Shown here piece after piece: positions 4,608-48,409 of a stretch of 64,000 nucleotides of DNA. Source of the DNA: Acanthochlamys bracteata (Eukaryota; Streptophyta; Magnoliopsida; Pandanales; Velloziaceae). A program made the position numbers and the translations under genes. Position 1 is the first letter of the stretch, and each line of letters starts with the position of its first letter. The stretch spans positions 3,846,501-3,910,500 of the forward strand of contig CM034132.1 in the NCBI GenBank assembly GCA_019914995.1, written 5' to 3'. Below the pieces are notes generated by a model. That model saw only the letters and a program-made list of their open reading frames with translations, was not told where the DNA came from and made no database searches.

Positions 4608-6715
4608 TGAGGTGTTAGGAACGTACAATATGTTATCTTTTAAATTACCTATAGTTTTAAGATTATTCTTTTTATAAGATAACGTCGGATGTATGTGTCA
4701 CAATATATATGACTAGTCTCACTTAGATATAATAAAGTCGAGATAAGATAAAGACAGTTCAACTAATTTTCTGTACATCCAATCGCTCCAACCAAAATAG
4801 TATACATGGCTTACCGAATTTTTTGGAATTCATATTCCAAAAGCACTAATAATTTTTTTAATGTTTTAATTTTTTAAATTCGAATTATATATATAAATTA
4901 TAATAATATTTTTAAATTTATAGTAAAATATAAATTTATCTTTAGAAAATTTTTGAACTTTTAAAAAAGGTTATTTTAAGCATTCCGAACATTCTTTTAG
5001 AGCATATTTTGGCAAATGGTGACTTTATTCACTATATTTTCCGTTATAAATTTGATGTGGATTTGGTTGTAATGTTGTATAATAATGTAATACGACAAAA
5101 AGTAGATCCAATAACAACTACATGAACGTACGTCACCAACTTCTAAGCGGTTTAAGATTTTTCATCTACTTCTAAAGATGTTTTTGCATCTTTATAATTA
5201 ACTTAACATTATTTTTAATTTAATTTTAGTTATACAAAATAATAAAAAAAAAATGTATAACTTATTTGTTTCTAAAAATGTATAATATTAATAAATATAT
5301 TTTTAATAACTAAATTTCAATCCAAAAGAACTTGTTTTAAGTGTCACAAATCAAAGCCGATAAGGTCATTATTAATAATTTTACTATATTTGGCTTCATC
5401 CTGACCTACCTTGTGCTATTGCTCACCATACCTTCAAAACTTTTCAGCAGGACCAGTTCTTCCATCAACTCAACTTAGTGTAATACTTTCATCATTTATT
5501 GGCAAATTTTTGGTACGTCTTTTTCCTTTCGTTTTTTGTCTCTTTTTTATAACGCGAGAAAAATACAAACACTCTTTGTTTTTTTAGGTATAATAGTTCG
5601 TTTGGTAGAATTATGAAAAATTAAAATATAAAATGCAAAATCTACGTCTCCTAATCTCAAAAATATTGTAATCATTAATCTCAGTAATAAAAAATCTATG
5701 ATCGTGGTCATTATCAAATATTTTTTAATAAACAACTTCAAATGTTATTATTAGAAAGTAAATCAGTAAATCGGACTGAACAAAATATTTTTTTTGAATT
5801 AAATTGAAACGTTCTAGTTTATTTTCAATAGCTTTACTAAAATAAACTCTGTATGAGTTAGCGACTGATTCCTGCTGCTTTGCTTCAGTAATAAGTCAGT
5901 ATCGTTAGAATTAATCTTTAGAATTAATTATTGAATTAATATAAGAACTATTCACCGATATACATTCTCCTCTAATGCAACTATTGAACTTAAACATATG
6001 TCGTGGGACCTCTACATCTTTGATTAATTAATAATTCCCAATAATCCTCACCGTGCATGCTGTGCATTTTCACGGATAATATCTCTCATAATCCGCAAAT
6101 TTCTCATAATTAGTAGAAGCAAATTGTAGTTACTCGTTCATGCTCAGTTATATATAGCATTCAATCAATTTCCTCAATACTATTTTATTGTTAGATGAAA
6201 GTGGCACTTCATTTTTCACTAAACCTCATCAAGAACAATAACCAGATCATCTCCTTGGGGAAGAGTTAAAAATGGTAGTTCAAGAGTTGAGAAGCATGAA
6301 TTTAAGTCGCGTTTCGGTTATTTTTCTTCTACGCTACGGCGCACGGTAAAATCTCATTTAACCAATGCATTGCAACCCATCCCTATATGCATTGCAACCA
6401 ATCCCTATACATGCATTTTTAACTCCAAGAAAAATAACATTATGTATGTGACTCTTACATAAATGTAACTTACTGCTAGTTGTGTATAGTTTATAAGTTA
6501 CAACTGTCCAACATATATATCCATTCTTTTCTTTGACATTACTCTTCTGCAACAGGAATCCCTAGTATTTCACCCCTTTCAATTTGCTCTCTTCAAGACC
6601 CAGATATTAATTACAAGCATCAACCATGTCGTCAATCTATATATTCTTTGTCGCCTCCGGTTCTCTTCATATGTTACTACTCTTCTTCTCTAAGTAATAC
6701 TAGCACTGATTCACT
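4602..6715. other. Intergenic / 5' flank of first TBL gene
   Basis: AT-rich DNA with one AT-rich repeat copy (about 4840-5010). From about 6540 the sequence becomes pyrimidine-rich (CTCTTCAAGACC, GTCGCCTCCGGTTCTCTTC), which is typical of a plant 5' UTR leading to the ATG at 6716. I see no other gene. Confidence 0.45.
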
Positions 6716-9700
6716 ATGGGGAAAGGTTCATGGCTAGAAAAAGAACCATGGTCTCCAGTACACCGCAAGAACATGAACTATATCATCGTCTTGCTCTTCG
6801 CAGCAGCACTTTTCCTCGTTGTTTCTTTCCATCTCTTTTCTGCTCGTTCTGTTGCGGTCATCGCAGTTTCGTCAGAGAGCACAATGCCACTGAGAGCAGT
6901 GACACAGTTTGAGCTAGTATACTCTAACCGTTCTATCCTTTGCCTTCCTGTGTCTAAGGCAACTGTAATAGTCCAAGCAGAAGTTCAGCTTGCTGACGGT
7001 AATGATTTACCGGTAACACTTTTACCTGCTCCGCCGGATTCGGTGCAGAGTTCTGATACGCAGATTAAGTTCAGGTATGTTAATAATTCTGTAGTATGCC
7101 TTCCTGTCTCTGGTGCTGCTGTTAGTCTCCATAGACCCAAGAACCGTACCGGTGACGTGAAACAAAATGAGAATGAAAATGTTACAACGACGGTTGCTAG
7201 CACGCCAGCCGCAACAGATACAACGGATAAAGCTGAGCTTATCAATCCCATTATAGATGAAGAAGAGCAGAGAGGTATGTGTGAGTTTTTAACTGTTTAG
7301 TTTCTTCTTCTTTTTTTAATAACTCAATTAGCAGCTAGATTCTGAAATATATTCATGCATCTTTGAATTTGCTGATTATCTTTGGCAAACCTTGAAACAC
7401 TTTGTTCCATCTTCAAAGGAATTCTTGTAAGAAGCATTGCTACTGTAATAATTCTATAGTTCGGAATCAAATCCAAGTAAATCTAGCTAGTTTAATTGTT
7501 TGGCTACAAGCATCTCTTCTGTTTGGGGGAATTTAAGATCTCAACAACTATCTACAAACAGCTAGATTAACACAGTACTCATCATGAAGAAAAAATTAAA
7601 AATTCCCCAGGACAATCTATATAAAACGTTTACGTAAATTTAGCTGACATTTGTTGGATTTTGACTTGATATAGCGAGGCTTCTGTTTATTGTCTCTAGA
7701 CCACTGTTATTTGTTTCTCTCAATTCACAGAGCTCCATAGGAGAGTTCTGTTACTGAAGAGATAAGAAAATTTAGGTCCAACCCTAGTGAGTAGAAAGAC
7801 ATTGTATCGAACTACAAAGACACTACGAACCACATATTAAGAAGCTCATATACAATAACACATATTAAGCAAAGATTGACAAGGTGATATTAGTTAATGA
7901 CTCAATTATGGAGAAAATTTGTTGTCACTGACAGTAACACTGTGTAGTGTGTCCCCCCTGCCAACAAATTTCACACATGCGTCTTACTGTTTGGTTTGAA
8001 AAAAATAGTTTTGCTTAGGATTGAAGTCAAACAACTAGAGACAGACTGAAAATAAACTATTGAGTTAATACATTAATAAATTGAGTAATTATGAGTCATT
8101 AACAGTGTTAATTATCTACAATCGGTAGCTATTAAATTTAGTTAATTACGGTCTAGTCCCCTATCCGATTGTATTTTGGTTTCCAATCCCTTAAATTGAT
8201 TAAATTATTCTATTAAATTTATGATACGACATCTTTCAAACTTAATTATGTGTTGGGTCAAGTTTTAGCATTTGTAATGACTATGGCAAAATATAGTGTT
8301 GCGGATACAATTAGAGTTATAAAAAAGTTCCTGATGATTTGGTGTAACTGTTTTCAAGTTAATCTTGGTGCACATTTGAACTAGACTATGCCCATTGCAA
8401 CATTGATCAGTATTTTTGACATTTTACTTATTCACAGAGATTGAACGTCGCCGGACTCACAACAAGGTGATCCGGCGATGGCGAATGATCCGGCCACATT
8501 GCGACGTTTACAAAGGACAATGGATCTACGATAACTCCTACCCGTTCTACAACGTATCAACCTGTCCTTATCTCCGCAAAGAGTTCCACTGCCAGAAATA
8601 CGGTCGGCCTGATACGTCGTACCTCCAGTTCCGATGGAAGCCCGACGGATGTGATATACCAAGGTTCGAAGCCGAAGATTTCTTATGGAGAATCAGAGGG
8701 AAGAAGATAATGTTCGTTGGCGATTCGTTGAGTGTTAACATTTGGGTTTCACTTGTTTGCATGCTTCATTCAGTAGTACCTAGTCACGGGTACCGAAAAC
8801 ATGGCATGTCCATTGCAAGATTTGAGGTACGTACTTATCAATCTTGCGTTTGATTTTACTCGGGTAAATGTTCATGTATATATATCTTTGTGCTTATGTA
8901 CATTCAGAAATACGACGTTGAGATAATGAACCAATGGAAACCTTACTTGGTTGACATAGAAGAAGAAAAGGAATTAGGTCGTGTGCTGAAACTGGATTCA
9001 TTACAGTGTAATGGGACTGAATGGAGTGGTGTTGATTTTCTGGTATTCAACACTTGGTATTGGTGGTTCCGGCAAGGAAAGGCCAGACCGTAAGTGCGAG
9101 ACCCTAACATATTGACAAAATCCTAAACTTGATTTTTGATACACGTTTACTGGGTGTAGGATGAAATTAATGGTTATTATTCTTTCGTGATGCAGATTTG
9201 ATTTCATAAAAGATGGAGATAAGGTAGTCAAGGACATGAACCGAATGGATGCATACGCAAAAGCTCTTAATACTTGGGCTTCATGGATCAGTTCCAATGT
9301 TGATGCTTCGAAAACTAGGATTATATACCAAGGTGTGACTCCTTCTCATCTCAGGTAAGACGTGCATATTTTACAGAACTACCGAAACATTTAGAGCAGG
9401 AACTTGAATACCCAAAATATCTATTTGAATGAACACATTTGTCTTTATACGGGGCCAATTATCTGCTGCCACAATAATAGAACTTGATGAGCTGATATAA
9501 TAGGCACGAATAAACCACTCGATCAGAAAGCTTAAATTTGATAGATATGTAATGGACCAATATATATACTCTGATGTTTTATGCATGATTTAAACCAGTG
9601 GAAGGGAATGGGGGCAGCCAAAAAGAGCAAATTGTTTAGGACAGAAGCACCCTGTGAAGGGATCGACTTACCCTACTGGTCCGATTCTGCCACAACCTAT

Positions 9701-9893
9701 CATTGAGAAGGTGTTGAGTACAATACCAAAATCCAAACATGTAATTCATCTCGACATAACGCTTCTTTCACAGCTGAGGAAAGATGGTCACCCCTCTGTC
9801 TACAATGGGTTTCATCATATGGATTGTGGGCATTGGTGTGTTGGGGGTGTCCCTGATACATGGAACCAGCTCCTCTATGCAGCTATTGTTTGA
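6716..9893 (+). CDS. TBL: TRICHOME BIREFRINGENCE-LIKE (TBL) protein, five exons
   Basis: Predicted Golgi polysaccharide O-acetyltransferase of the TBL family, whose studied members acetylate xylan, mannan or pectin. Exons: 6716-7274, 8438-8826, 8908-9089, 9196-9354, 9599-9893. All introns are GT-AG and the joined frame gives 527 aa. Seen: a cytosolic stub, a signal-anchor helix at about residues 22-42, a long variable stem (43-187), the PMR5N Cys-rich block starting at Cys208 (YGRPD, RWKPDGC), the GDS motif at 281-283 (FVGDSLS) and the DxxH motif at Asp505/His508 (DCGHWC, then PDTWNQLL). These supply the family's catalytic Ser, Asp and His. Oddities: the usual NQW after GDS is NIW, and the stem carries an internal duplication. 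The closest group by eye is TBL36-43. It is paired with the second TBL gene at 21.4 kb, which has the same intron phases. The polymer substrate cannot be inferred. Confidence 0.93.
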
Positions 9894-10459
9894 TAGGTAA
9901 TTAATTCTAAAGGTATATCTACTGTAAGTACACATTATTGTAATAATTTTCTTATTGTACCGCAGGAGGTGCTGAGATGCAGCTCCTCCCCCAGGATGGT
10001 TTCTGTATGGAAAACCTACACAAACCGAATAGAAAAGGGGTGAATTGAGTTGCTTACAAAAAATAAAAGTCATAAACCAATTTTCTTTCGAAGTAGCAGT
10101 AATATAGCTTGTTTACATTGTAGCAGACGGAAAGAAACAAAGATGGATTAGTTAAACTAGTCAAGTAATCCTAAGCTATATCAAAAATAAAGAAAAGTCA
10201 GTTTTTGCAATCCGAATTATATGTAAGAAGAAAAAAGAAACATTCACCACACAAACACATTAAATTTACATGTTCAGTTTGTTTACATCGATGTCGATTC
10301 TTCGTCAAGCGTGAAATATATTAATTTTCTCAAATTGTTATAATGACAAGGTAACGTGTTTATCCAAATAACCTCGCCTTAACCGGTTCCCTCCTCGATC
10401 TAAACTTTCAGCAGCTTTCTAAACTCTCAATTTTCTACGGTTGCTATCTGATACCCAAT
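9894..10459. other. 3' flank of first TBL gene
   Basis: The 3' UTR presumably lies within the first few hundred bases, which contain several AATAAA-like words (AAAATAAAAG near 10060). The rest is unremarkable and leads into the gypsy element. Confidence 0.4.
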
Positions 10460-40940: not shown

Positions 40941-40974
40941 AAAATAAGCTCTATTTATATACTTGGGGGACCTA

Positions 40975-41432
40975 AACATCACATCAAAAAACTGCTGAGA
41001 GATTCCTTCTTATCACAAACAGTAGTAACAGGACATGACCACTGACGTGGTTTGACGAGACGTTCTGTCTTGTAGCTATTATTGTAATAGCATAGTGATA
41101 AGATTTCCATGCATTATTGTACCTAGCCACTATGTATCAGGGGCCACGTAGATTAGTAGAGTTTTGTCATTAGTTAGTGATATTTTATCATTATACTATG
41201 TTCATATGAATATGTCGGCCACTAGCACAAGATAAGGCTTATGGGATACGCCACTGCGATCCCTTGTAAATACTATAAATATGGGGCTTCCCCCCTTAGT
41301 TGAGGACACCCCACATACCACTTGTGAATAAACCTAAAACTTTGGTTTACATCTCTCATCTTCCTCTGTTTAATTTTCTTCCAACCTTTCTCCTTCCGCC
41401 GCCCGGCTATCTAGATCCAGGTCATAGCAATT
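40975..41432 (+). repeat. Divergent LTR-like repeat with promoter, pararetrovirus-related
   Basis: Homologous to, but clearly diverged from, the terminal repeats at 43568 and 48011. Shared words include CATCACATCA, GCATTATTGTACCTAGCCAC and ATGTCGGCCACTAG. A TATAAATA box (41274-41281) is followed by a leader and AATAAA at about 41328. It directly precedes a primer-binding site. It probably represents a related subfamily whose 3' portion is gone. Confidence 0.6.
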
Positions 41433-41445
41433 TGGTATCAGAGCC
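41433..41445 (+). other. tRNA-Met primer-binding site
   Basis: TGGTATCAGAGCC, a perfect complement to the 3' end of plant initiator tRNA-Met, at the downstream edge of the divergent LTR-like repeat. Confidence 0.85.
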
Positions 41446-42142
41446 GTAGATCGTCTAAACCACATCGTGTATCTTCTTTGTGCATCTAACGTCGTCTATC
41501 AGAGATTTGGAGCTTAACAAGTAAAAGCTGGAGGTTTGCTTTGACAGAACTGGTATGGCTTCCTTCACAATATCGTTTGGTTTTCCTAACATCATGCTAG
41601 TCTTAGTTGCAGGAAGTGTTGTCGTTATTTGCTTATAGTATTGTAAGAAAATGGTAAGTTGAGAAACTTACAGTTCAATGGTACCTTCTTCGATCTTGAG
41701 CTACTACGCCACGGAGTAGAAAACGAACCATGGCTGTGCTCGGTACTTCTGAAGCAGGGGTATAGACTAGGGGTTCAAGATACTTCCTAGAGAGAAGTTG
41801 AGATTGAAGCTGAGCTCTGACACGAAAGCCACCGTCAGGGGTGCTCTGTTTAGCCGGAGGTATTTGGGTCAAACCTAGTGAGAGGTTGAAGAAGAATGCC
41901 TGAGAACTGTTCGTTTTGATCTTTATTGATTTCTTATATGATTATAGCAAATAGACGAATATATGCTCTAAGCTAACTGTGCAGGTCTAACCAAAGAAGG
42001 AAGGAACTGTCAAAGAAATATTAGGGTCAAATACAGAGGATACCTATGATCAAGGATCAATTCACATAGTATACCTATGGACAGAAATGTTCATATTTCC
42101 TCACCAGGAAAGCAAGCGTCTCTATAGAGACCAAATCTGCAT

Positions 42143-42572: not shown

Positions 42573-43567
42573 AATATGAGTTTGAATAAATTTCAGTATA
42601 TTTTTTGGAGTCTACCACAATAGACAAAGAAGAATATAAATACTATATATATCGTTAGGACTTTATAGTCAAAATATCCAATACGATATATACAAATATA
42701 ATATTGTTCGTATACTGCACAATTCTTACAATATCCTTTGTATCATATTTGCAGTTACACTAACGTGCTTGTTCCTCTTATCAGGAACTAGATATCGTAT
42801 TCCTAGTTATACTTTAGCCAAGAGTTATCTAGGCTCAGTAATCAGGTGGTGTATTTTCAGTATACTTTAGCCAAGAGTTATCTAGGCTTAGTAACCGGAT
42901 GCAGATTTAGTCTCTGTGGAGACGCCTGCTTTTCTGGTGAGGAAATATGAACATTTCTGTCCATAGGTATACTATGTGAATTGATCCTTGATCATAGGTA
43001 TATTATGTATTTGACCCCGATATTTCTTTGACAGTTCCTTCTTTCTTTGGTTAGACCTGCACAGTTAGCGTAAAGCATATATTCGTCTATTTGCTATAAT
43101 CATGTAAAAAATCGATAAAAATCAAAACGAACAATTCTCAGGCATTCTTCTTCAACCTCTCACTAGGTTTGACCCAAATACCTCCGGCTAAACAGAGCAC
43201 CCCTGACGGTGGCTTTCGCGTCAGAGCTCAGCCTCAATCTCAACTTCTCTCTAGGAAGTATCTTGAACCCCTAGCCTATACCCTGCTTCAGAAGTACCGA
43301 GCACAGCCATGGTTCGTTTTCTAGTCCGTGGCGTAGTAGCTCAAAATCGAAGAAGGTATCATTGAACTGTAAGTTTCTCAACTTACCATTTTCTTACAAT
43401 ACTATAAGCAAATAACGACAACACTTCCTGCAACTAAGACTAGCATGATGTTAGGAAAACCAAACGATATTGTGAAGAAAGCCATACCAGTTCTGTCAAA
43501 GCAAACCTCCAGCTTTCACTTGTTAAGCTCCAAAACTCTGATAGACGACGTGAGATGCACAAAGAAA

Positions 43568-43970
43568 AAACCGTAGCAGCATAGGCCGCAGCGAAGTGTG
43601 GTGGGACTATACATCATATCAGCATCACATCAAGCACTGCTGATGGATTCCTCCTCACATGGGCATCACGTGGGCCCGATGGGACGTCTCGTCTTATTAT
43701 ATTGATGTGACCATGTAATAGTAAAGTGATAAGATTCTGTTGCATTATTGTACTTGGCCACTATGCACATGTCGGCCACTAGTTAATGGAGTCTTATCAA
43801 GGACGCCACAGCATTCCTTTGTAACTCTATAAATAGAGGGCGCTCTCCTCCATTAAGGATCATTCTCAACCTAAATAAACGAAGATCTTCTTTAACATCA
43901 TCTTGAGCTCTTGCTGTGTTTTTAAGCTTTCCTTTTAATTTCTTTCTTTGTTTAGCTGTAGAATACAATC
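43568..43970 (+). repeat. 5' terminal direct repeat (LTR-like) of pararetrovirus-like unit
   Basis: About 400 bp that recurs in direct orientation at 48011-48409. Shared start AACCGTAGCAGCATAGGCC, shared end GTAGAATACAATCTG. It contains TATAAATA at 43828-43835 and AATAAA at about 43874, so it has both promoter and polyadenylation signals. By eye the two copies differ at roughly two to three dozen positions, mostly C/T and G/A transitions, plus a few small indels, so the unit is old. No TG...CA termini and no target duplication were found, which is unusual for a true LTR. Confidence 0.85.
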
Positions 43971-43983
43971 TGGTATCAGAGCC
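43971..43983 (+). other. tRNA-Met primer-binding site
   Basis: TGGTATCAGAGCC lies exactly where the 5' direct repeat ends, as in LTR retroelements. Caulimoviridae also prime minus-strand synthesis from initiator tRNA-Met at this sequence. Confidence 0.9.
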
Positions 43984-44463
43984 TTGGTGCGTGGAGCTCC
44001 GAAGCTTGGCGATTTCGGTAAGCTTTCCTTTCTTTTGTGTTTTTTATTTACCTAACATCATGGTAGCTTAAATTGCAGGAAGATGTTCCGCTGTTTGCCT
44101 GTAGTATTGCGGAAAATGGTAAGTTGATGAACTTCTAGTTCAAATGCACCTTCTATGATCTCGATCCACTACGCCACGGAGTAGAAAACGATCTATAACT
44201 ATGCTCGGTACTTCTGAAGCAGGGGTATAGGCTAGGGGTTCAAGATACTTCCTACAGAGAAGTTGATATTGAGGCTGAGCTCTGACGCGAAAGCCAACGT
44301 CAGGAGTGCTCTGTTTAGCCGGAGGTACTTGGGTCAAACCTGGTGAGAGATCGGATGAAGAATGCCTGAGAACTGTTAGTTTTGATTTTTATCAACTTTT
44401 TGCAATATGATGGTAATAGCTGAACATCTCCTACAAGCTACTACTTGCAGGTACAACCATAAC
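43984..44463 (+). promoter_or_regulatory. Leader with predicted 332-bp intron
   Basis: Non-coding leader between primer site and first ORF. A strong donor (AATG|GTAAGT, intron from 44119) and acceptor (ACTTGCAG, to 44450) define an intron. The homologous copy at 41.6 kb has the same pair at 41654 and 41984 (331 bp). Splicing would remove the ATG at 44407 and leave the ATG at 44464 to open the first frame. Leader splicing is known in some Caulimoviridae; here it is predicted from sequence only. Confidence 0.55.
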
Positions 44464-44706
44464 ATGGAAAGCGCTGCCATAGCAGTCGTTGAAGACACCT
44501 ATAGGGGTCAATATGGTCTAAACAAATATCATTATGAACATACAGTTCATATTCCCACAACAGGGAATGTCTACACAGAGATAACATCTGGGGTCTACAA
44601 CTACATTGTAGATATGCTCCAGGAAATAAAAAATGATATCAAATCTATAAAGACCTTATGGACACCAGTTGCAAAGCCAAGGGATACCACGGCTAAACTG
44701 CACTGA
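44407..44706 (+). CDS. Small coiled-coil-like protein of the pararetrovirus-like unit
   Basis: An intact open frame of 99 codons from the first ATG, or 80 codons from the ATG at 44464 (preferred if the leader intron is spliced). The C-terminal half (YNYIVDMLQEIKNDIKSIK) has heptad-like spacing of hydrophobic residues. Small coiled-coil proteins are common in Caulimoviridae (virion-associated proteins), but I see no specific motif. It ends 10 bp before the coat-like frame, in a compact polycistronic arrangement. It is the only frame of the unit without a break. Confidence 0.5.
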   Translation: MMVIAEHLLQATTCRYNHNMESAAIAVVEDTYRGQYGLNKYHYEHTVHIPTTGNVYTEITSGVYNYIVDMLQEIKNDIKSIKTLWTPVAKPRDTTAKLH

Positions 44707-44715
44707 AAAAATAAT

Positions 44716-46520
44716 ATGGTGAGATATTCTTCTGAAAAGAAGAATAAACTCAACATAGAAGAAATCGATCGTATTTACTACGATTGTTTCCTTTCCCTAC
44801 AGGAAAAGGAATTGGCTGGAGAAATTAATCCGGTAGATGTTTATTCGTACTACGAAAAACATTCTTGGGCAGTAAATTTCTTCCGGTACAAAAATAACTC
44901 TTCATATGAAGATATTGAATTTGAACAAAACTCGCAATTTTCCGATGAGTCCGATACATCGGACGTAGTTGAATACAAATTGTTCATGAATGAACAAGGT
45001 GAAGCTAGCGGGTCCGCCCTAATGCTATCTTCACCCGAAATGTATTCACAATATCAGGGTATGCATCCACAGATGCACCTGCAGGAGACGCATCCACAGA
45101 TGCCTCCGCAGGCAATTCCTGCACAACAAACACCCCCACCGGAAATTCCAACGGCGGAAGCATATCGGCCTCCGGATCCATTACCGAAAATGCTTAGATT
45201 TGCTTCGAGATCGGATTGGATTCAGCTCCACTCCTCGAGAAGGGGAATAGGGAACCAACCAAATCCATCTATACAAAACTATAGTCCCACAGGACTAACC
45301 TTCAATATCGATAAAATACCCCATCGATATATGAAGGATTACATCTCAAATTGGACCCAACGAATATTGGGGACAATATGGGTTCTTTCAGCTTTGACGA
45401 CGAATGAATACATTCGCTTCACAACAAGTTTCTGGGAGGGAGACGCACTAGCATGGCTAGAAAGTCTCGACAAAAGCTGTCCACAGACTGTTGCTAAAAT
45501 CAGGAGTATCCCAAAAACTGAGGCACTACCCCGATTGATGAATATCCTCTTAGCAAATTTCACTCGAGAAACTGCTATAGAAGGGAAAAATCATGAAAAA
45601 AGCTGTTCCAAATAAAACTATGCGACATTTATATGTTAGAAGAATTTGCTTCTGAATACATCGGTCTCATTTTTCGACTTGGAACAACAGAACAAAAGAA
45701 TTTCTGGATCAAAAGATTTTTTACAAAAATCCCTAGTCCATGGAATAAACTTATACAGACAACTTATGATCAGCTTCGGGCTACAGCTTAAACAACTGAT
45801 CATTCCACAGGTCTTTTAAAAAAGGCTTGTATGGAAACAATGGAGAAAGTCTGTGAGCAAGCAAAGGCTCAAAGACAAATCAAACATACAAAACTTGAGT
45901 ACAATTGCTGTACCAAGTATACAGTCAATACAAACCAAGACTTTGGCTATCCTCCAAAATATGAAATATGGGATAAAGCTCTCAAAAAGCAGGACCCTAA
46001 ATTTCGTATTACTCGGAGAAATTGGAAACCATATGAGAAAAGGAAAATCCAAACGGAGAAGAAATTCTCTGATAGGAAATTCCTAGATAAAGAAAAATTC
46101 AAATCTTGTTGCAAATGCTTCAAATGTGATCAGAAAGAATACTTCACAAGAGAATGTCTCACTCAGATCAGAAGCATAACACGTAGTGATATCGATCAAT
46201 ACGGTATCCATATCGGAACCGTGAAAGATATCTCAAACAACAATGACTCCTCAGAATATGAGGTTGAATCTATTTGTTCGGATACATCCGACGATAATTC
46301 AGTAGAAAACCTAAGGATGAATATGTTCACCATAAATCATACAATGAATGTGGTGAAAGTTACACAATTGAGCAAACACTCAATACTCCCAAAAAAGGAG
46401 AAAGCAAACTCCCCAGGCTATACATTATATGCCAGGAAAAATATTAAATTGAAAAGGTACCGAACAACTGAGATATATTTGGATCTAATTATCCAGACCC
46501 GTTCGGATACTTTAGGATAA
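44716..46520 (+). pseudogene. Decayed coat/gag-like protein with zinc knuckle, Caulimoviridae-related
   Basis: Frame 1 (44716-45615) has an acidic N-terminus, a Gln/Pro/His/Met-rich repeat (QMHLQETHPQMPPQ) and a capsid-like core (EYIRFTTSFWEGDALAWLE). A frameshift near 45600 and a stop near 45790 break it. It resumes at 45831-46520 with a Lys-rich stretch, a CxCx2C zinc-knuckle start at about 46110 and an acidic Ser/Asp-rich tail. In the knuckle the position that should be His is Tyr (codon 46140-46142). The arrangement capsid core, basic region, knuckle, acidic tail is that of caulimovirid coat proteins; a retrotransposon gag is the alternative. It lies upstream of the movement-protein frame, the reverse of the order in most genera. 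Confidence 0.65.
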
Positions 46521-46608
46521 TCCATAATATACCCAAACATACGAAAAATAATATGTTTATAACACAGAGTATTATCTACTAGTAGTCAAGACCAATGTAC
46601 TAATCTTA

Positions 46609-47981
46609 ATGAAAAGTACAAATCTTGATGACAGGGATTATGAGATTGAACAAAGAGACCCAATAGGACTCCTTGTAATACATAAATACGAGGACCTTCC
46701 GATAATAAAGGAAGAACTCGAAGATATTGAAATCTGCTCTCCACAAAGAGCATTCATGCACTCTCCACAGAGAATTTCAACTAGCAGCACCCCACAAAGG
46801 GCCGCGACTTGAACTCGTTCCCCATTAAGGGCCGAGGCTTCTAGCTCTACTCCCGCTAATATATCTAAAGAAGGAGGAGATATATTTCGAGAGTATAGGC
46901 TATACATGTTCAAATTCTCTTCCGAACCGGAAGAAACAATACATCCGAGTATTCAAGATAGCATGGATGAACAATTCGAAGTCACCGATGAAGATCTTAA
47001 AAGACTCAAAGAGACAATTCCTCATTCTGACAAGAGGGAAATTTACAAACCCCCCTCTTTCAGATCAAGATTCCTCAATAGGCATACATATATTTTCGAA
47101 CGGATGCAGGGAAATATTGAATTAAAAGGTGATGAAGATTTATCTTCCATCAGCCTTTTAAACTAAAACAAAATTGAAAAACTCCGTGATAAATACTCGA
47201 GAATGGAATACATACATATTGGGCTAATACAGCTCAAAATCACGGTTCTCTTTAGATCCGGGATTGATACACCTATAATGGTGGTATGTATGGATGAGAG
47301 GATTGTTAACAACCCTCTAAACAGTATCATTGGCGGAGCTAAATCTAATTTAGCAAACCGTCTATTTGGTGTCACTATACATCCAAACTTTTGTATAAGT
47401 TTGGAAGATCAACATATAGATAAATTTGCACTTTATCTGTAAAACTCCAAGGGATAGAGCTCTTAACAGGCTCAAAAATACTTGGAATACAATAGGAACA
47501 CTGTATGGCTTTGAATGATACATCTACATTAAAGTCAGTAACTCCAAAAGAGTTTGTCAAACTATTCGAAGTTGGAATAGGTAAAACTATTCAACTAATA
47601 TTAGTTGACATAAGACACTTAAAGTTGGATAATGACATGCAGCTATTCCTAAAAACCCTAAAGCCAAAACCTCTAATGCCAATTGAGTACTTCACAGCTT
47701 CAGGAAATACAATCTCGTCTGTGATCAAGCATACCAATCCTAACGAAGCATCCACCTCAACAAACGTACCACCACAAGGGGTAACAAGGTCCGTTTCATC
47801 TCTATCTTCCCGCAGATAGGCAGACGTAGAACTCACTCCAGAAACTCTACACGACATCCATCGTTTAAGCTTCAAGGCAGATGATCCAATTGAAGGAAGA
47901 ACAATAAAACTCCTTGAGCGACAAAGGGCAGATAAAGTGGTAGTCAAAGTATCACTATCCAAGATAAGCACACACGAATAA
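46609..47981 (+). pseudogene. Decayed 30K-type movement protein, Caulimoviridae-related
   Basis: The sequence reads through in one frame from 46609 to 47442 with stops at 46810-46812 and 47164-47166. It then shifts frame near 47440 and continues to 47981 with stops near 47490 and at 47817-47819. The core at 47203-47390 has the 30K signature: YIHIGLIQLKI, FRSGIDTP, then CMDERI with the hallmark Asp (LxDxR-like), then a small hydrophobic stretch and FCISLEDQ. Such proteins move virus particles or nucleic acid through plasmodesmata and are absent from ordinary retrotransposons. The N-terminal part has a short SPQR-type repeat (SPQRAFMHSPQR). Inactive as it stands. Confidence 0.75.
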
Positions 47982-48010
47982 GACAAGAAGACTGGTACAT
48001 CCACCATGAG

Positions 48011-48409
48011 AAACCGTAGCAGCATAGGCCGCAGCGAAGCGTGGTGGGACCATACATCACATCAGCATCACATCCAGCTGATGGATTCCTCCTCATATGG
48101 GCATCACATGGACCTGATGGGACGTCTCGTCTTATTATATTGATGTGACTATGTAAAAGTAAAGTGATAAGATTCTTTTGTATTATTGTACCTGGCCACT
48201 ATGCACATGTCGACCACTAGTTAGTGGAGTCTTATCAGGGACGCCACAGCATTTCTTTGTAACTCTATAAATAGAGGGCGCTCTCCTCCATTGAGGATCA
48301 CCCTCAACCTAAATAAACGAAGATCTTCTTTAACATTCTCTTGAGCTTTGCTGTATTCTTAAGCTTTTCTTTTAATTTCTTTCTTTGTTTAACCGTAGAA
48401 TACAATCTG
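48011..48409 (+). repeat. 3' terminal direct repeat of pararetrovirus-like unit
   Basis: Direct copy of 43568-43970 with TATAAATA at 48266-48273. It lies 30 bp after the end of the movement-protein frame. The match to the 5' copy breaks off just where the primer site begins in the 5' copy (ATACAATCTG then GTATCAG in one, AGAGATG in the other). Confidence 0.85.

Follow-up and report, generated by a model that had tools for sequence, protein, structure and literature searches.

A reverse transcriptase-less unit with a 30K movement protein in Acanthochlamys bracteata, probably one component of a multi-component endogenous caulimovirid

The unit at 43568-48409 and its copies

The window analyzed here, a stretch of 64,000 nucleotides from Acanthochlamys bracteata (assembly GCA_019914995.1, contig CM034132.1, positions 3,846,501 to 3,910,500, forward strand), carries at 43568-48409 a unit bounded by direct repeats that encodes a coat-like protein and a viral 30K movement protein and is devoid of reverse transcriptase (RT). 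The original prediction read this unit either as one component of an endogenous caulimovirid with a divided genome or as a non-autonomous derivative of the long terminal repeat (LTR) type. We consider it to be probably the coat/movement component of a multi-component endogenous caulimovirid. Below, C denotes this unit type, A the RT-bearing type and B a third type; L numbers denote stretches examined elsewhere in the genome. The features of the C-type unit, in window positions, are:

43568..43972, + strand: left repeat of the C-type unit, extending 36 bases left of the usual GGACC
43580..43611, + strand: stretch like the 5' half of initiator tRNA-Met, left copy
43971..43983, + strand: tRNA-Met primer-binding site, a 13-base match to the host tRNA gene in L040
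43973..44406, + strand: leader common to all three unit types, in the B type from about base 75
44407..44706, + strand: small ORF0, 99 aa, with a homologue in RT-bearing units (56-60% at the amino acid level)
44716..45615, + strand: coat-like frame, 299 aa, whose N-terminus recurs in RT-bearing units
45792..46520, + strand: second coat frame, with a zinc knuckle (~46117-46158) followed by a dUTPase-like N-terminal segment (likeness from L014 and L025)
46813..47442, + strand: 30K movement protein, N-terminal part and core, with a stop at 47164-47166 and PF01107 on 47167-47442
47505..47819, + strand: C-terminal part of the movement protein, in a different frame
48011..48409, + strand: right repeat, ending in AATCTG
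48023..48066, + strand: stretch like the 5' half of initiator tRNA-Met, containing GTGGTG/GGACC (the slash marks the left-end point); best block 24/26

The predicted direct repeats of about 400 bp are borne out, as 43568-43972 and 48011-48409 align in three ungapped blocks of 94, 92 and 92% identity (93% across 399 aligned bases). The repeat proper that is common to the copies measures about 368 bp and runs from GGACC to AATCTG. Direct reading of the left repeat gives TATAAATA at 43828 and AATAAA at 43874. The tRNA-Met primer site, TGGTATCAGAGCC at 43971-43983, lies at the repeat edge as had been claimed, overlapping it by 2 bases, and matches the 3' end of the host initiator tRNA-Met gene over 13 bases in L040 and 11 in L039. 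The leader RNA folds no better than its shuffles (z -1.14).

The window frames comprise 44407-44706, 44716-45615, 45792-46520, 46813-47166, 47167-47442 and 47505-47819. The 30K movement protein is backed by its profile, PF01107, with E 4.4e-17 on 47167-47442 and E 1.2e-18 on the piece from L010; in the window copy its frame is interrupted by one stop and one frame change. One public relative of this protein, the JGI-sourced P0001 (a 952-base contig, 84% identical over 38% of the L010 piece), indicates that a close relative has been recorded elsewhere. The absence of RT also holds, as the Pfam scan of seven window frames gave no match to RT, RNase H or integrase. The small ORF is present as described, and the profile check of the coat came out negative: Pfam returned nothing over cut-off for ORF0, the coat frame, the knuckle frame or the outer movement-protein frames, the main coat frame had no PDB match, and a PHROGs search with two frames gave nothing convincing. 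We call the frame coat-like on the grounds of position, knuckle and selection. The zinc knuckle of the window copy deviates from CX2CX4HX4C at one metal-binding position; the motif is intact in four of eight other copies scanned (L010, L022, L025, L038) and has no match in L009, L012, L014 and L015.

The segment between the zinc knuckle and the movement protein appears dUTPase-like in its N-terminal portion only, to judge from structure-database matches. All 23 PDB matches of the L025 segment (5845-6273) are dUTPases, with a best E of 0.0011, as are 13 of the 14 weak matches of the L014 segment (2240-2803; best E 0.22). The segment has no Pfam match, a five-row profile returned no dUTPase, and the C-terminal part of a dUTPase finds no support.

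A search of the genome (195.5 Mb) with the repeat gave at least 50 matches. We examined 26 stretches, chosen by their place around repeat, leader and RT matches and forming only part of all such matches. Three further copies are collinear with the window unit (L009, 86%; L015, 84%; L022, 81%, its left repeat truncated), and all are without RT. Contig C7 holds full copies at two places, and C16 and C20 hold one each, the flanks being different. L021 has an internal deletion, L010, L014, L018, L019, L028 and L038 hold partial C units, and L018 has a head-to-tail form, in which the movement protein is followed by a single repeat, the leader and the coat. Copies with RT inside the unit were looked for at the examined loci and none was found. 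The RT-less unit is hence not a lone deletion, given three further full collinear copies and several partial ones, all without RT.

The divergence between paired repeats (Kimura two-parameter distance) is 0.07 in the window, 0.11 in L009, 0.12 in L015, 0.19 in L022 and 0.22 in L021, indicating that the RT-less copies were inserted at different times. Assuming that the repeats were identical at insertion and that plant substitution rates lie between 7e-9 and 1.3e-8 per site per year, an age of some 3-5 million years would follow for the window pair. If a single provirus had simply lost its interior and then multiplied by segmental duplication, this could account for the flank common to L012 and L015. 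Such an origin is hardly credible in view of the four places with full copies, their different flanks and the repeat-pair divergence.

Partner units and their separation

Sister units with RT, for which a repeat search had been suggested together with the original prediction, are present in the genome (L020 and L033; L017 agrees, with RT deleted). The A unit of L020 runs through leader, ORF0 (60% at the amino acid level), the first 38 coat-like residues, a protease-like stretch, RT and RNase H; after only ~250 bases follow a proline/threonine-rich linker and a C-terminal protein (T), then a repeat that runs on B-like into L036. L033 keeps this order, as does L017 apart from its deletion. Pfam recognizes RVT_1 (PF00078, E 1.4e-11, L013) and RT_RNaseH_2 (PF17919, E 1e-9, L020). 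The protease-like stretch, named by eye and position, has no Pfam match, and no integrase occurs in the L020 frames 6200-9901 or in the scanned A pieces.

Against the caulimovirid-type rows used for comparison the RT piece shows 40-57% identity, with 46% for cauliflower mosaic virus (CaMV), and against three Ty3 copies from the same genome it shows 27-33%; some possibly-Ty3 rows reach 40%. Its best solved match is the 'Enzymatic polyprotein' 8r0s, which we take to be that of CaMV, ahead of Ty3. A weakly supported tree of 103 residues, with references that include no named solendo-, cavemo-, petu- or florendovirus, places the piece among caulimovirid-type rows, apart from the single Ty3 row that passed.

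The B type is complete in L011 and L023 and nearly complete in L038. Behind a diverged repeat of its own it has the common leader (from about base 75 onward) and encodes a protein that shares 28-41% identity with T. The B_mid piece of this type was compared in a frame that runs over stops; its bias pattern points to frame 7778-8284 of L011, and the mapping of positions is not affected. B and T pieces have no Pfam match over cut-off and T has no public protein homologue; from its position, T is possibly a transactivator. Exact primer sites occur in the B-type pieces of L011, L022, L024 and the window. The units measure ~4.4 kb (C), 3.2-3.45 kb (B) and 3.4-4.3 kb (A). B-type repeats also hold an extra partial copy of a promoter element (~176-284 of the C repeat; L011 5421-5531 and 8883-8922), possibly a duplicated enhancer.

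To follow the content of single units, we walked from each leader match to the next same-strand repeat, stopping at 5.2 kb or at the next leader and dropping RT matches below 50% identity. None of 36 walks holds movement protein and RT together. Coat and movement protein are found in six (window, L009, L014, L015, L021, L022), protease and/or RT in three (L017, L020, L033) and the B protein alone in four (L011, L022, L023, L038); the rest are one rearranged coat/B mix (L028), five single coat or movement pieces and 17 walks without a scored feature. On contig C1, where a movement protein lies near RT, a repeat and a leader intervene. Of 7 places with partner-type RT, 6 have a repeat or leader at a distance of 5 kb or less, versus 2 of 46 for the other caulimovirid RT of the genome (46 of the 49 best rows, three below 60% being dropped and lower rows uncounted; 44 of 50 repeat rows); without the two query places the counts are 5/6 and 1/45 (p 1.5e-5).

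Components are joined at L009, L010, L014, L020 with L036, L035, L038 and the window. In L038, B is followed by C in one direction. In L009 the right end of B is separated by a few bases from the left end of C, and in L010 the right end of C by 13 bases from the left end of B. L020 with L036 shows a C end, repeat pieces, the A unit, and a B-type repeat with B protein pieces, an inverted fragment lying between; L035 holds pieces of all three types. In the window, a B piece from 40967 and an inverted B piece up to 43566 precede the C unit. A partner with similar repeat, leader, ORF0 and coat N-terminus, together with the joined loci, supports the predicted component of a divided genome, as do the A and C leaders, which a weakly supported tree leaves unseparated. 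In the leader tree (17 rows), B forms one group at 93/94 and three A rows fall among C rows.

Selection was assessed from differences between copies at first/second/third codon positions. These are 0.096/0.074/0.209 in the movement protein core, 0.115/0.084/0.227 in its C-terminus and 0.110/0.073/0.222 in one RT piece; the ratio of third to second positions is 2.7-3.0 for these three and 1.3 for the leader control. The bias is weaker for coat (0.140/0.096/0.180) and B_ct (0.128/0.103/0.186). Taking the large third-position ratios only, movement protein and RT appear to have been working genes while the lineages diverged.

These data bear on a different explanation, in which C and B are satellite-like deletion replicons of a monopartite caulimovirid ordered coat protein (CP), movement protein (MP), protease (PR), RT, RNase H (RH) and T, which the complete parent packages and copies in trans, with only the short forms captured. 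The ORF0 and coat N-terminus retained in A would fit a deletion derivative, T occurs in both A and B, and the account of bipartite florendoviruses by Geering 2014 (PMC4241990, in extract) leaves room for a helper. Against this, no monopartite parent turned up in the walks and the C1 pair is split by repeat and leader, C copies of different ages have the same structure, and the third-position excess in the movement protein of C points to a working gene. We regard such an origin as unlikely, although it is the strongest of the competing explanations.

The B-type pieces next to the C unit in the window are:

40967..41432, + strand: B-type repeat (promoter, TATA, poly-A signal), left end GGGACC
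41433..41445, + strand: tRNA-Met primer site of the B-type piece, TGGTATCAGAGCC
41581..41926, + strand: B-type leader, homologous to the C-type leader (86%)
42968..43566, - strand: second piece of B-type leader, in inverted orientation and directly adjoining the C-type unit

The B-type leader is present as an inverted pair (41581-41926, + strand; 43106-43459, - strand), a palindromic insertion beside the C unit. The genome further harbors a second, different caulimovirid lineage, RTy, with long open frames (L041 2-1456, L042 284-1600, L010 2908-3446). It accounts for the 46 other RT places, and its movement protein lies ~3.8 kb upstream of RT at several of them; RTy (L010, L041) is not the partner. 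PF02160 gave 24 marginal rows across the genome, two of them just above cut-off together with their neighbors. In IMG/VR, from which records near this genome may be excluded, searches with MP, RT and a 20-base pattern from the leader yielded no relative.

Ends of the units and a possible origin of the repeats

Twelve repeat copies with eleven different left flanks start within two bases of GTGGTG/GGACC (L009, L010-B, L011, L011-B, L012, L013, L014, L015, L021, L023-B, L027 and window-B; L012 and L015 have a common left flank). On the right side, seven copies, each with a different flank, stop at AATCTG or at most 2 bases short of it (window, L009, L010, L025, L028, L022, L019). At least nine repeat alignments, including the left repeat of the window unit, start elsewhere than GGACC, through truncation or divergence. 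A head-to-head junction in L023 starts at GTATCAGAGC, the other side of the AATCTG end, and a similar one in L011 starts at TGGTATCAGAGC.

Coinciding ends, terminal direct repeats with promoter and poly-A signal, and a primer site at the repeat edge are also what a non-autonomous LTR retrotransposon would display if it had captured coat and movement genes and were moved by an autonomous LTR element. This second option of the original prediction is not supported. The ends are GGACC...AATCTG and not TG...CA, no target duplication is seen by eye at L009, L015 or the window, the partner in L020 has no integrase, its RT is closer to caulimovirid-type rows than to the three Ty3 copies, and movement protein and part of RT display a third-position excess. 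An LTR element is accordingly very improbable.

According to the ICTV profile (PMC7660458, in extract), the circles of caulimovirids have breaks where each strand is primed, with short displacement. Breaks 368 bases apart, once opened and filled in, would give exactly these direct repeats, to judge from the end positions. Many repeat ends lie at the primer-site break or at the G-rich left-end point, and the LTR look is therefore best explained by opened, filled-in nicked circles.

The left-end point lies within a likeness to a host tRNA. Initiator tRNA-Met (L039) aligns with the right repeat across this point at 24 of 26 positions, with one mismatch and one gap, in the same sense; its score is 41, against at most 31 among 5000 shuffles and 25 in the rest of the window. 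In the B-type repeats of L009, L011, L022, L023 and L025 the likeness begins with base 1 of the tRNA, as also in L026 and the A-type repeat of L034. All three unit types have this tRNA 5' half-like piece where the repeat begins (window 48023-48066; L011 8627-8670). It may supply a G-rich primer, or may be an old copying accident.

Taken together, we propose separate circles of ~3.2-4.4 kb, each with promoter, poly-A signal, tRNA-Met primer site and common leader. Circle A would carry the protease-like stretch, RT, RNase H and the C-terminal, possibly transactivator, protein; circle C would carry ORF0, coat, knuckle, dUTPase-like segment and movement protein; and circle B would carry a paralogue of the C-terminal protein of A. 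A would provide RT in trans and C would provide coat and movement. Each circle would be broken at the primer site in the minus strand and at GTGGTG/GGACC in the plus strand, and opening and filling-in would yield linear DNA with 368-bp direct repeats. Host end-joining would then capture this DNA, often several components together, a pathway suggested by the observed end positions. A and C may represent complementary deletions of an ancestor ordered ORF0-CP-MP-PR-RT-RH-T. In its fullest form, this would be a three-component pararetrovirus, with RT, coat/movement and a third (possibly transactivator) gene on one circle each and a control region in common; its plus strand would start within a 5' half captured from the initiator tRNA that primes the minus strand with its 3' end, one host tRNA serving both. 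We give this fuller version roughly even chances.

Several observations weigh against a multi-component virus. Every copy is a decayed fossil, and the replication of the components is putative. The primer sites of A units are decayed, with 1-2 mismatches in L033, L017 and L013 and none within 2 in L020. The leader tree has no inner branch at the strong-support mark. Repeats and leaders are ~70-90% alike between units, below the >90% of bipartite florendoviruses (PMC4241990, in extract), and at this likeness no A-C pair can be assigned to one virus strain. A rare monopartite form could have been missed among the repeat and leader matches outside the examined loci. As for selection, the protease-like piece is flat (0.167/0.159/0.152, p 0.91), a second RT piece has little bias (0.102/0.103/0.156, p 0.04), the non-coding leader control is itself biased (0.13/0.13/0.17), and the rows of the codon test are not independent.

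Comparison with known caulimovirids

The units share with Caulimoviridae the 30K movement protein, RT and RNase H (on the partner only), the tRNA-Met site (in C and B) and the lack of integrase. They depart from the single circle of 7.1-9.8 kb given for the family (PMC7660458, in extract), as do the bipartite florendoviruses. We have filed the unit as caulimovirid-derived rather than as a standard member of Caulimoviridae. The Metaviridae traits of integrase, TG...CA ends and target duplication are not found. Of multipartite traits, complementarity and joined insertions are seen, in fossils alone.

In cavemoviruses and solendoviruses, both monopartite, the coat comes first as standard, followed by movement protein, Pol and a further protein. 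The statement in the original prediction that the movement protein usually precedes the coat thus applies to the polyprotein genera, and the order seen here is in itself no oddity. The present units resemble Solendovirus and Cavemovirus in that coat, movement protein and Pol follow one another in this order, with one more protein at the place of the transactivator (TAV). This gene order suggests a solendovirus/cavemovirus-like ancestor. The differences are the divided organization and T pieces that have neither a Pfam match nor a public homologue, TAV homologues being described in both genera (PMC5902531, in extract).

Petunia vein clearing virus is monopartite with a single polyprotein, and lacks the component split seen here. 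Its provirus has quasi-LTRs, and terminal direct repeats round an integrated caulimovirid are common to both. The provirus is also mentioned in PMC12904150 (in extract). Coinciding ends offer a testable origin for LTR-like repeats round integrated pararetroviruses. A new question, on plus-strand priming, arises from the captured piece of initiator tRNA.

The closest likeness is to the bipartite florendoviruses, Oryza sativa B virus and Vitis vinifera B virus with components A and B, a reading that Geering 2014 (PMC4241990, in extract) based on complementary domains, compound insertions and an intergenic region in common. The same three kinds of evidence are present here, with intergenic identity lower than the >90% reported there. 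In both cases an endogenous caulimovirid has RT on one component, a second component with coat and movement protein and no RT, a common intergenic region and compound insertions, and the last protein has homologues on at least two components. The florendovirus order, with MP before CP in one polyprotein, is not found; here the CP-like frame and knuckle precede MP. Our units are also smaller (3.2-4.4 versus 5.5-6.9 kb), include a third component, have the protease-like stretch on the RT unit only, and carry a dUTPase-like segment, LTR-like ends and the initiator tRNA piece at the plus-strand end.

The extracted text of PMC4241990 describes the bipartite fossils as a unique organization among viral retroelements, with no divided genome known in extant caulimovirids. 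The extracts of open-licence literature on divided-genome caulimovirids (including PMC10377300 and PMC13308828) deal with bipartite florendoviruses or come from work citing them, and mention none with three components. RT-less components evade RT-based surveys, and CAULIFINDER has lower sensitivity for florendovirus component B (PMC9719215, in extract). If true, a lineage that combines a different gene order with three components and with deletions that appear complementary would mean that splitting arose again and went further. The bipartite florendoviruses are the precedent, of which three components, LTR-like ends and tRNA capture are a variant.

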